This document shows positions 48,270 through 51,548 of a stretch of DNA of 64,000 nt, one piece after another; the stretch's first letter is position 1; each line of letters starts with the position of its first letter. The translations under genes and the position numbers were made by a program. The stretch comes from Actinobacteria bacterium IMCC26256. GTDB lineage: Bacteria; Actinomycetota; Acidimicrobiia; IMCC26256. The stretch spans positions 1,859,001 through 1,923,000 of the forward strand of contig CP011489.1 of the NCBI GenBank assembly GCA_001023575.1. Direction: 5' to 3'. A model generated the notes under the pieces. The model did no database searches. It was not told the DNA's origin and was given only the letters and a program-made list of their open reading frames with translations.

Positions 48270-48405
48270 GGGAGTTTCGGGAGAGTCTGATCCGTCCGTC
48301 TAGTGAGGGCTGGAATAAAGACGGGCTCCAAGCGGTTAGACCGTGTGCAGGCCCGGCCTCATAAATAATTGAGGCCTGGTCATGCGCCAAAAAACCAGAA
48401 GACAG

Positions 48406-48502
48406 CATCCAGAAGACCCTGAGAGACCCGGCTCTGTGAAGGGCTGGCAACCGATCTCCGCCCTCGGGCGAGGCCACGGTGCCAATGCCGGGAACGATGA
48501 AT
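48406..48502 (+). ncRNA. S-box (SAM-I / SAM-IV-like) riboswitch candidate, copy 1
   Basis: Leader ending 12 bases before the start of the gene at 48515. It carries the core words of the S-box fold in the right order: a stem CCGGCTC-TGTGAA-GGGCTGG, then GGCAACC, a GC-rich hairpin (CGCCCTCGGGCG), then GGTGCCAAT and GCCGGG. CATC at 48406-48409 can pair with GATG at 48496-48499 as P1. The ribosome site AGGAGAGG follows P1 directly, which suggests translational control. Bases 48418-48502 are identical to the second copy at 50033-50117. Assignment to SAM is by motif only. Confidence 0.6.
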
Positions 48503-48514
48503 GAGGAGAGGCAA

Positions 48515-49075
48515 ATGAGTAAACCCGCCAGTAAGGCCGCTATTAAACCGCTCAATAAACCTACCGGTGCAGCGCGCGCTGCTGTCAAGAAGACCGGCTT
48601 CACGACAAAGAAGCCCGCAGCAAGTAGGGGCCGGCGCAAGGAACTCGGTGACGAGGGGTTTGTTCCACTCCCCCCTCGCGTCTCGACCACATGCCAGCGA
48701 TACCGCAACGGACACAACGTTCATTTTATGGTTGTGATGGGCAATATTCGACACCACAAGAGCAAGCCATGCAAGGTGCTCTCAGTCGCAGATGACGGAA
48801 CCGTGGTCGTGAAAATCGGTCGCAAGACCCTCACTCTCTGGTCCCACGACCCCACTTTTCTGAGTAAATGCGTTGGGCCAAATGGAGCTGAATCGTGGTG
48901 GTACGAGTCACGAATTTTAATGGTTCAGGGGCCCGATGGCATGAGCAGGGGCTTTCAACTCGGCGAAGAGCCATCCGAGTGCACCTATATAGAGGAGCCG
49001 ACGTTCAACGAGAAGTACTACGGAATTCGACGCGAGGACGACCCGGCCGAAGACGACCCGGACAACTGGGCTTAA
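48515..49075 (+). CDS. Unknown protein, one GHxV/DDGT/HDP domain, basic N-terminus
   Basis: 186 residues. The first 45 are Lys/Ala/Pro-rich (KPASKAAIKPLNKP, VKKTGFTTKK) and look unstructured and possibly nucleic-acid binding. Then a β-rich domain of about 95 residues: GHNVHFMV, CKVLSVADDGTVVVKIGRK, TLTLWSHDP. The same pattern occurs twice in the protein encoded at 50131, so these are paralogues. The tail is acidic. The ATG at 48515 has an excellent GAGGAGAGG ribosome site directly behind the S-box-like leader. I recognise no known family. Confidence 0.7.
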   Translation: MSKPASKAAIKPLNKPTGAARAAVKKTGFTTKKPAASRGRRKELGDEGFVPLPPRVSTTCQRYRNGHNVHFMVVMGNIRHHKSKPCKVLSVADDGTVVVKIGRKTLTLWSHDPTFLSKCVGPNGAESWWYESRILMVQGPDGMSRGFQLGEEPSECTYIEEPTFNEKYYGIRREDDPAEDDPDNWA

Positions 49076-49097
49076 TTGCGTATTTAAGTTAAAAAAC

Positions 49098-49865
49098 TCA
49101 GCGATTAATTTTGCCGACAATTCGAGGCATAGCGATCCGAACATCGACACCCGGGGACCACCGAGCAATCGGCGTGCCGGTCGGAAGTGGCAATCCTGCG
49201 GCGCTCAGAAGAGACTCGTCACAGTGAAGCACCTCGGCTTCATGTATTGGCCACGCGTCATGGTGGATATTCGCCCAGAGTCTGCGCGAACCAAATACCG
49301 ATCCAAGTGCCCACCGTGCTGTTAGAAAATGGTCAAGCTCCGTGAGTTCACTCGTTAAGAGTTCTCTCCCAACGCGCACCGTTACCGAACTCGATGCTTC
49401 ACCACGCGGCCACTTGCGACGCGATGTATAGGTACGAATCTGCGCATCTCCATCGGCTTGCTCACTCATCGTCATTGACGACCAGCAGTACGGAAGACCA
49501 TAAGTAACTCTCGCCACCAAAGCTGGCAGCATGCGCGATACGTCGAGACTGAAGAACCACACTCCCCTCCTGCCGTTTTCGTCGCGAATATAAGTTCGCA
49601 CATTGGTCTCAGGGAAGGTCGATAGTGGACCAAAGGAGGGTGTATGCGGTACTCGAATACGCCGCATGTGAAATGGAATCAAGCCAACCCATGCAGCGCC
49701 ATCAAACGTGTCAACGGTAAAACCACTAGGCAGGAACGCTTGGATGACTGAGGGCTCATACCGCCAATGCAGTGCGGTGAGGTTGTACCAACCCTGGAGC
49801 ATGACCGGTCGCCTTACCTCAACGGTAGGTTCGATCGAGATCGGTTCGGGTTCTGTGGTCGTCAC
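49098..49865 (-). CDS. DUF2071 (YqjF-like) protein
   Basis: 255 residues. The sequence follows the DUF2071 family: VMLQGWYNLTALHWRYEPSVIQAFLPSGFTVDTFDGAAWVGLIPFHM, then FPETNVRTYIRDENGRRGVWFFSLDVSRMLPALVARVTYGLPY, and a C-terminal HDAWPIHEAEVLHCDESLL. The fold is acetoacetate-decarboxylase-like, but the function is not established. It lies on the minus strand between the two leader-controlled paralogues and is not obviously related to them. Confidence 0.85.
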   Translation of the reverse strand: MTTTEPEPISIEPTVEVRRPVMLQGWYNLTALHWRYEPSVIQAFLPSGFTVDTFDGAAWVGLIPFHMRRIRVPHTPSFGPLSTFPETNVRTYIRDENGRRGVWFFSLDVSRMLPALVARVTYGLPYCWSSMTMSEQADGDAQIRTYTSRRKWPRGEASSSVTVRVGRELLTSELTELDHFLTARWALGSVFGSRRLWANIHHDAWPIHEAEVLHCDESLLSAAGLPLPTGTPIARWSPGVDVRIAMPRIVGKINR

Positions 49866-49969
49866 CTAAGCCCCTTATGAAGAGTTATTTGAATATCCAA
49901 CCAGAAAACTTTCGATGAATGGGAATACTTGAGGATCTTGTTTCGTTTCATGCTCCAAGAGGCGACCAT

Positions 49970-50000
49970 TCAAGAGCGTTTTTGGTCAAGAGCGTTTTTG
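49970..50000. repeat. 15-bp tandem repeat, period 16
   Basis: tcaagagcgtttttg occurs at 49970-49984 and 49986-50000, with one G between, followed by a partial third start (ttcaag). It lies just upstream of the second S-box-like leader, so it may sit in or near that gene's promoter. Confidence 0.85.
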
Positions 50001-50021
50001 TTCAAGTCTTGAAAACCAATC

Positions 50022-50117
50022 CATCAGGAAGTCCTGAGAGACCCGGCTCTGTGAAGGGCTGGCAACCGATCTCCGCCCTCGGGCGAGGCCACGGTGCCAA
50101 TGCCGGGAACGATGAAT
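50022..50117 (+). ncRNA. S-box (SAM-I / SAM-IV-like) riboswitch candidate, copy 2
   Basis: Second copy of the leader. Bases 50033-50117 are identical over 85 positions to copy 1, including GGCAACC, the GC-rich hairpin and GGTGCCAAT. Upstream of the identical block the sequences differ, but both keep a CATC (here 50022-50025) able to pair with GATG (50111-50114). The ribosome site TAGGAGA follows at once and the ATG is at 50131. The downstream proteins have diverged far more than the leader. Confidence 0.6.
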
Positions 50118-50130
50118 TAGGAGAACAGGC

Positions 50131-51270
50131 ATGAGCAACGCTTTTACGCCCCACACCCCCAGACGCGCCTTTATCTGCGGGTTTACACCTGGGCATCTAG
50201 TGCACCCGCATCAACTGATCACCGAACTGAAGAGCGGCAGCAGTATTCAGGCGCGCATCCTCTCAGTCTCGGATGATGGCACCATCGAATTAGGCAGCAG
50301 TGATGGTTCCATAACAACCGTTTGGAACCACGACCCCGAGCGAGCACGCTCGCTCTGGGGCGCAGAGGAAACCCCTCTCGTCTCGTTATTAGGAGACTCG
50401 CTATTAGCAATCGGTGAAGGATGCCTATCGGTCACAAAAATCCCGACGCAGTGCTGGGGGGTTGACGCGAGTGAAAACTCTCAGCACCCTGCATGGCTTG
50501 GCTCGGAGTCTCATCAATGGGTTCCCGACCCCGAATCGTATTATCCGAGCGATGGGAGCATAGGCCCCCCTTATTGCGGATGTGCTCCGGGGCATCGGGT
50601 TTCGTTGAAACGTCTTGATCGCGCTCTGAAGGCTGGCCCTGGGCAACGCGGCGATGTGCTTGAGATTACCGATACTGGGCGGGTCGTTCTTGGGCTCGGA
50701 GGACGAGAAATGGTCCTGCATAATCACAATCCGAAGAGGATGAGCAGCGCACTCCACACATATCGCAACCCTCTTGATAGAGAGTACCCGCTCGACTATG
50801 GAGACCATCCGGAGGCTTCGCTACTAGATAGGGATGTGCTGCGCATTGGCCATTTTTATTTCTGGACTACTTATGAACCTCGAGCACTGTGCTCGTACGA
50901 CTACACAGAAGAACATTACGAAGGAATGAGGCGCGTGTTATCGCGCAACGGAGCAAGACCGCCTAAATACCCTTCGCAGGAAGATCTGAGTATTCCCGGC
51001 TTCACTTATGAGATCGTCCGGAGCGGCGTCGCGGAAGAACGATTCCGATTAACAGCGAGTCTTCAAGAAGAGAGGAGTGTAGGGGGTACCTATATTCCAA
51101 TCGGATTGCAGCCCTCAAGCCCCGAGTGGGGAAGTGAGGAACATGTCGAGAGGATATATAACGCTCTCGTATCCTCGTTGAGCAAAACGGAAGAGCAACC
51201 AACGTATGAGCTAACGCCAGATCAGGTTGCAGAGAAATTTATTACCTCACTATATGGAGAGACGAGATAA
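50131..51270 (+). CDS. Unknown protein with two GHxV/DDGT/HDP domains
   Basis: 379 residues, no signal or membrane segment. Domain 1 (about 12-105): FTPGHLVHPHQL, ARILSVSDDGTIELG, TTVWNHDPERA. Domain 2 (about 148-255): CAPGHRVSLKRLDRAL, GDVLEITDTGRVVLGLG, MVLHNHNPKRM. Each seems to be a small β-barrel. A C-terminal region (SYDYTEEHYEGMRR to DQVAEKFITSLYGE) is more helical. It is paralogous to the 48515 gene with an extra domain. The ATG has AGGAGA seven bases upstream. It is coupled to a small acidic gene. No function can be assigned. Confidence 0.7.
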   Translation: MSNAFTPHTPRRAFICGFTPGHLVHPHQLITELKSGSSIQARILSVSDDGTIELGSSDGSITTVWNHDPERARSLWGAEETPLVSLLGDSLLAIGEGCLSVTKIPTQCWGVDASENSQHPAWLGSESHQWVPDPESYYPSDGSIGPPYCGCAPGHRVSLKRLDRALKAGPGQRGDVLEITDTGRVVLGLGGREMVLHNHNPKRMSSALHTYRNPLDREYPLDYGDHPEASLLDRDVLRIGHFYFWTTYEPRALCSYDYTEEHYEGMRRVLSRNGARPPKYPSQEDLSIPGFTYEIVRSGVAEERFRLTASLQEERSVGGTYIPIGLQPSSPEWGSEEHVERIYNALVSSLSKTEEQPTYELTPDQVAEKFITSLYGETR

Positions 51271-51548
51271 TGGAGGAGATAAAGGAATCAGAGGGTTTTC
51301 TGGACCCTTATAAAGAAGGCAGCGGCTACTCCGAAGAGGCGGTCGCTTCTATGCGGGCAGAGATGCAGGAACTAGCCGATGTCGTCAATGACGAAGAGAG
51401 TTGGCCTGCTTGGATTGACGCCCAAATCGGTACGGGGATGACTCCCGAAGAGGAGAAGCGTTCGCGTTCGCGGTGGCTTTCATTTTTAGAGGACGAACGA
51501 GATCACCCGTTTATGACAGACCTCGATACATCGCCCGAGTTCTGGTGA
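51270..51548 (+). CDS. Small acidic protein coupled to the two-domain orphan
   Basis: 92 residues, strongly acidic, rich in Glu and Asp, with Trp near the end (DLDTSPEFW). Predicted mainly helical (SEEAVASMRAEMQELADVVND, TPEEEKRSRSRWLSFLEDE). The ATG overlaps the previous stop as TAATG, with no gap, so it should be made together with the upstream protein under the same leader. It may be a partner or antagonist, which is inference. No known family recognised. Confidence 0.65.
   Translation: MEEIKESEGFLDPYKEGSGYSEEAVASMRAEMQELADVVNDEESWPAWIDAQIGTGMTPEEEKRSRSRWLSFLEDERDHPFMTDLDTSPEFW

Follow-up and report, generated by a model that had tools for sequence, protein, structure and literature searches.

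The locus and its genes

The stretch of DNA analysed here, referred to as the window, is 64,000 bases long and corresponds to bases 1859001-1923000 of the single-contig 2.46 Mb genome of Actinobacteria bacterium IMCC26256 (G000), the relatives of which are actinobacterial MAGs that, going by the isolate names, are of freshwater origin. Within it lie two orphan genes, each with an RNA element in its leader, and a 92-aa ORF that is probably in one operon with gene 2 (Table 1). The gene pair is syntenic in the genome G003, with the spacing unchanged. In G000 the locus is followed after about 1 kb by a phage-type integrase (window:52253-53746), where G003 has an acyl-CoA dehydrogenase, which places an insertion boundary near 52.2 kb. 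The same synteny, along with a 92% identical protein, is also found in CAMDSG010000042.1 (L057), a record titled Bifidobacterium breve, although this title looks wrong.

In a sequence-only reading of this DNA it had been claimed that the two proteins share scattered motifs only. The proteins (186 and 379 aa) are indeed just 33% identical over 67 residues, but they have in common a domain of ~70 residues, here called HxIQAR/NHDP, which in the alignment shows GHxVHxIQAR towards its beginning and WNHDPxRL about halfway along, and which occurs once in gene 1 and twice in gene 2. No credible or significant match to this domain was found in Pfam, NCBIfam, PHROGs or solved structures, and a structure model of protein 2 (mean pLDDT 34) gives only a hint of a possible repeated helix-strand-strand-strand-helix pattern.

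Table 1. Features of the locus (window coordinates)
Feature	Position	Strand	Basis and remarks
SAM-clan aptamer, copy 1	48403..48503	+	cmscan RF00162 38.5 bits, E 1.2e-6 (2 kb scanned); genome search E 3.4e-7; gathering score 44.4 not reached
85-base block in copy 1	48418..48502	+	direct comparison; holds P2, P2b, pseudoknot, P3 and most of P1 3' strand
Shine-Dalgarno AGGAG, gene 1	48504..48508	+	sequence, leader table; 8 bases past start of P1 3' strand (GAUG at 48496)
Orphan gene 1, 186 aa	48515..49075	+	ORF; G003 ortholog 68% identical; no Pfam above cut-off, no NCBIfam match
HxIQAR/NHDP domain of gene 1	48683..48955	+	profile A2 E 1e-24 (protein itself is a row of A2)
SAM-clan aptamer, copy 2	50018..50118	+	cmscan RF00162 52.5 bits (E 3.3e-9, 64 kb scanned); gathering score 44.4 exceeded
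P1 5' strand of copy 2, AAUCCAUC	50018..50025	+	cmscan alignment; pairs with 50111-50118 GAUGAAUU, 7/8 pairs
85-base block in copy 2	50033..50117	+	direct comparison; identical to 48418-48502
Shine-Dalgarno AGGAG, gene 2	50119..50123	+	sequence, leader table; directly 3' of P1 3' strand
Orphan gene 2, 379 aa	50131..51270	+	ORF; orthologs 92% identical in two genus relatives; no Pfam/NCBIfam family
HxIQAR/NHDP first repeat, gene 2	50167..50418	+	profile A2 E 1e-22 (stretch itself is a row of A2)
HxIQAR/NHDP second repeat, gene 2	50575..50976	+	profile A2 E 1e-18 (stretch itself is a row of A2)
92-aa ORF over gene 2 stop	51270..51548	+	ORF; G003 arranged alike; no Pfam family

Two identical blocks of the SAM-I family

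The two blocks are the same at all 85 positions, exactly as had been claimed, and on direct comparison the identity cannot be extended by one base on either side, with the next-closest match to the block in the window having 42 mismatches. The sequence just outside the block was also said to differ, and this is true of the P1 5' strand, which lies outside the blocks, yet the flanks are still related (left CATC..GAAG, right GATGAAT.AGGAGA). Conservation is thus far higher in the RNA than at the protein level, with 85/85 bases against the protein identity given above.

The covariance-model check proposed in the sequence-only reading gave RF00162 (SAM-I) as the best model of the SAM clan for both copies, ahead of SAM-IV (RF00634) and SAM-I/IV (RF01725). 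Copy 2 passes the RF00162 gathering cut-off and copy 1 on its own fails it, copy 1 being assignable to the SAM-I family by its core, the sequence of which is identical to that of copy 2. The lower score of copy 1 results, at least in part, from its weaker P1 outside the block, which is made up only of CAUC/GAUG, four pairs. A score under the cut-off and so short a P1 might be expected if copy 1 were a decaying remnant, with regulation at copy 2 only, however the core is unchanged, and between G000 and G003 the copy 1 leader agrees at 92/92 bases in front of genes that are 70% identical. As a decaying RNA would have diverged, decay of copy 1 is thought unlikely.

A search of the whole genome gave three SAM matches, each of them 5' of a gene. 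The leader is therefore not a dispersed repeat, as there is one other match only, before threonine synthase, and the mobile repeat that further copies might have pointed to finds no support. This third match (G000:C1:270323-270411; L004:3324-3412) is the strongest SAM-I in the genome at 78.8 bits and precedes thrC, it too is P4-less, with the start codon ~100 nt downstream.

Aptamer structure and covariation

The GGCAACC, GGTGCCAAT and stems that had been picked out from the letters as lying in riboswitch order are present, and the order is that of SAM-I. It runs from the P1 5' strand through J1/2 with GA, P2 (kink-turn-like GA..UGAA), P2b, the loop CCCGG, P3 (GGCA-A-CC ... GG-UGCC) and GCCGGG, which closes a pseudoknot with the P2b loop CCCGG, to the P1 3' strand GAUG. 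The P4 helix is absent from both window copies, the cmscan alignments having ~1 base where the P4 segment would be, and by their sequence the window RNAs are classed as P4-less SAM-I-type switches of the SAM clan.

When 15 related RNAs are aligned, 95.9% of cells in the named structure, pseudoknot included, are standard pairs, and 14 pairs have changed on both sides, compensation being seen in each of P1, P2, P3 and the pseudoknot. P3, for example, covaries from GGCA/UGCC to GCCA/UGGC and ACCA/UGGU. The observed pairing and covariation was reached by 0/500 shuffles and by no slid version of this alignment. The motifs that contact SAM in SAM-I (J1/2, the P3 internal loop and P1), at positions which we take to be those of the T. 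tengcongensis structure, are kept in 85/85 aligned switches, before orphan and methionine genes alike.

Why the two leaders match

Conservation of the leaders extends to copy 2, which is identical at 91/91 bases between G000 and G003 in front of a gene that is 93% identical. Leaders that stay identical while the genes behind them diverge point to an RNA under strong selection. Gene conversion or strong selection on the RNA had been put forward to account for the identical window copies, and of these strong selection is indicated by the comparison across genomes. What fits best is strong RNA selection combined with a leader that was recently copied or gene-converted.

A second identical pair is found in G280 (L117, L118), where two aptamers that are the same at 80/80 positions, with the compensated P1 CCAUU/AAUGG, precede two proteins sharing only their first ~60 residues. 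A different form of duplication is seen in the copy 1 leader of G003 (L036:5750-5829), in which the 14-mer AGCATCCAGAAGAC is perfectly repeated in tandem 5.7 times. This 14-mer corresponds to the aptamer P1 5' strand, J1/2 and the start of P2, so that the aptamer is preceded by a series of alternative P1 5' strands, and the beginning of the repeat is seen in window copy 1.

Identical copies before diverged genes, both here and in G280, and the phage integrase close to the locus would also be compatible with the leaders being a mobile or repeated cassette whose position before genes is incidental. Against this, all of the three SAM matches in 2.46 Mb lie before genes, aptamer and start codon are in phase across ~50 leaders (see below), synteny is kept in G003 where acyl-CoA dehydrogenase replaces the integrase, and other same-genome copies are widely different, a further copy within G003 agreeing at 53/91 positions and differing at 38. 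Phage and plasmid records contain no match to either the aptamer or the HxIQAR/NHDP domain, and neither the domain nor protein relatives were found in viral contigs. The idea of a mobile cassette is thus largely refuted and is considered highly improbable.

Start-coupled switches across the bacterial class

With the Rfam model alone, 61 close and wider kin genomes yielded threonine synthase matches and a second group of matches of ~89 nt, nearly all of the latter placed right at a small gene's start codon, most often as CGATGAGGAGG-N5-7-ATG. A model of this group (R1) was then run against 395 genomes of the class and matched in 111 of them at E 1e-12 or better; as columns for the ribosome site are part of R1, it is biased towards start-coupled RNAs. 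The 85 aligned switches comprise 31 before metH, metX or thrC and 54 before other genes (tblastn). In 45/54 orphan leaders the P1 3' strand begins no more than 9 nt from the ribosome site and 12-20 nt before the start codon, with 5 more showing the same design by eye (P1 CCAUU/AAUGG or UUAUU/AAUGA), whereas the start-coupled design is found in 5/31 metH, metX and thrC leaders (Fisher p ~1e-9, treating leaders as unrelated). The unbiased Rfam search of the 61 genomes shows the same contrast between orphan and methionine genes, on fewer sequences. In the class, small orphan genes account for about 50 switches placed at the start codon, whereas methionine-pathway genes mostly have a distal platform.

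The orphan targets are unrelated small families, with HxIQAR/NHDP the most frequent among them. Others are zinc-ribbon-like or have LRV repeats (PF01816), pentapeptide repeats (PF00805), TPR or, in one case, TY-Chap3 (PF22552), and several have no family match. The genes neighbouring them show no common theme in Pfam, the few scattered defence-type matches being taken as unenriched. A single genome can carry several such switches. G037 (L050, L049) has three, of which two are separated by 10 kb, and the proteins behind them are two zinc-ribbon-like paralogs and a member of the YVER family. The methionine content of the orphan proteins is 1.0% compared with 1.6% in their neighbours (p 0.01, 11 residue classes tested), a difference too weak to use; low methionine content might suit proteins made in methionine shortage.

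Domain homologs in distant Actinomycetota

Homologs of the HxIQAR/NHDP domain were sought by protein profile alone and their surroundings were then scanned with all Rfam families. Matches in G022 and G040 were rejected as spurious. A SAM-I, SAM-I/IV or SAM-IV switch was found upstream in 7/14 homologs at E 1e-5 or better. Two have a SAM-I abutting their start (G390, 54.6 bits; G596, 56.3 bits), and in G184 (L175:500-899) a SAM-I with P4 (69.5 bits) is followed by a terminator-like hairpin between aptamer and HxIQAR gene, so that here the same domain is under a transcriptional-looking platform. SAM-I/IV RF01725 precedes the homolog in G049 (52.8 bits, cut-off 41.1). SAM-IV RF00634 (cut-off 38) precedes those in G610 (57.8 bits) and G503 (84.9 bits), the family of the latter having no further homologs of the domain that could be found, and also a 116-aa HxIQAR/NHDP protein of Corynebacterium lemuris (NZ_JANWTC010000007.1; L058:4893-5375; 61.4 bits), the start codon of which is 17 nt past the aptamer. 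The C. lemuris homolog was found via its similarity to protein 2 and is also a row of the profile. In the all-Rfam scan no switch was found upstream of the homologs in G121, G081, G130, G290, G228 and G600, nor of the weaker-E homologs in G629 and G639, and for the G640 homolog the contig holds only 185 nt of upstream sequence.

It had been suggested that other copies be checked for the same domain downstream, and they do precede it, with the association extending beyond SAM-I to SAM-IV and SAM-I/IV switches. The chance expectation is <0.01, and 7 in 15 would have a probability of ~1e-20 at the base rate of SAM switches, a rough figure that takes ~1.2 SAM switches per genome of ~2500 genes (the gene number being assumed) and is open to bias toward such relatives as most profile rows come from switch-linked proteins. 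As the cases span orders, classes and aptamer classes, simple inheritance of a single leader cannot explain them all, and that three aptamer classes were recruited independently suggests that it is important for this domain to be controlled by SAM.

SAM is the probable ligand of the window aptamers, since the pocket is unchanged and two other SAM aptamer classes are found at homologous genes. Target genes without a link to sulfur metabolism could instead mean that the aptamers have switched ligand and that the orphan genes answer to a non-SAM signal, for which the rare spermidine-sensing SAM-I variants provide a precedent (PMC10853860). In those variants J1/2 and the P3 internal loop are altered, whereas both are unaltered in all 85 switches here, and with SAM-IV and SAM-I/IV before the same domain the common denominator is SAM. 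A change of ligand is accordingly regarded as very unlikely.

Ribosome site and control logic

The block had been described as ending beside the ribosome site, and in both copies AGGAG does follow or overlap the P1 3' strand. The leader of copy 1 ends in GAUGAAUG-AGGAG-N6-AUG and that of copy 2 in GAUGAAUU-AGGAG-N7-AUG. The start codon is ~12 nt past the end of P1 in both, which is within the ~15 nt of the core that, with a ribosome site at P1, marks the direct translation attenuation platform (PMC2258182). Placing the ribosome site within the 3' half of P1 is an arrangement already described for SAM-I, and it is commonest in Actinobacteria (PMC2258182). As there is no space for a terminator between aptamer and start codon, control should act on translation.

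Plentiful SAM would bind the aptamer and stabilise P1, the 3' strand of which overlaps or abuts the Shine-Dalgarno sequence, such that ribosome initiation would be blocked. When SAM falls P1 would open and the orphan protein would be made. SAM-I switches are typically OFF switches, and this behaviour together with the position of the ribosome site suggests OFF logic here as well. That P1 blocks the ribosome site in the window leaders is a deduction from position rather than energy, because the loss of accessibility in folding is small; in ensemble folding with a P1 bonus the mean accessibility of the ribosome site drops from 0.52 to 0.47 over 45 leaders, with the window copies nearly unchanged.

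A different SAM logic, either transcription termination or an ON switch that frees the ribosome site, can also be envisaged, as P2 of copy 2 contains a UCCU that, in an unfolded aptamer, could pair with AGGA in the ribosome site, and there is the hairpin of G184. However, the window leaders and most of their relatives have no space for a terminator before the start, formation of P1 occupies or abuts the ribosome site, and an ON switch would depart from the usual SAM-I behaviour, making such logic improbable. It is likely that the two blocks are the core of P4-less SAM-I-type aptamers in the 5' UTRs of orphan genes, that these act as translational OFF switches, and that the proteins are needed when SAM or methionine runs short.

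Relation to known riboswitches

The window RNAs share with SAM-I (S box, RF00162) P1, the kink-turn P2, P3, the pseudoknot, the pocket motifs, GGCAACC and GGTGCC, but differ in having no P4, in orphan rather than methionine or sulfur gene targets and in the sub-cut-off score of copy 1. SAM-IV (RF00634) and SAM-I/IV (RF01725) are of the same clan and have the same pocket, and precede the domain homologs of C. lemuris, G503, G610 and G049, but their architecture differs from the class in the window. With the direct translation attenuation of Barrick and Breaker 2007 (PMC2258182) the window RNAs have in common the ribosome site at P1, the start near the aptamer and the occurrence in Actinobacteria, although the window ribosome sites abut or barely overlap P1 whereas those of most relatives (GATGAGGAGG) overlap it by ~3 bases. 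The spermidine riboswitch (PMC10853860) is likewise a SAM-I-like scaffold before non-sulfur genes, but the window RNAs lack the alterations that it has in J1/2 and the P3 internal loop, and no polyamine gene lies downstream of them. Sixteen Mycolicibacterium prophages have been reported to carry SAM-IV RNAs, in a passage that names no target (PMC8190616).

The sequence-only reading held that SAM control beyond methionine metabolism would be new. The RNA class and the ribosome-site-in-P1 platform are already known (PMC2258182), and it is the targets that appear to be new, namely the domain itself, the scale of orphan targets in the class and the presence of three aptamer classes on one domain. 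SAM riboswitches before these orphan families are unreported in the open-access literature searched.

A probable role in SAM shortage

SAM riboswitches have been used to annotate methionine and sulfur genes, yet here they mark dozens of genes without such a link. Since in Actinomycetota the shared domain has come under a SAM riboswitch time and again, the most likely role of the proteins is in responding to a lack of SAM or methionine, apart from methionine biosynthesis as such. This points to an unrecognised gene set that is switched on when SAM is scarce. More tentatively, Actinomycetota may possess a SAM-scarcity programme outside methionine biosynthesis, in which HxIQAR/NHDP and other small orphan proteins would be held off by three classes of SAM riboswitch and released when SAM collapses, be it through starvation or through phage or other SAM-destroying enzymes. 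An uncharacterised domain gains a testable handle in that the condition for its expression is predicted, C. lemuris offering a named strain for such work, and the level of SAM is suggested to be a wider physiological signal than is currently described.
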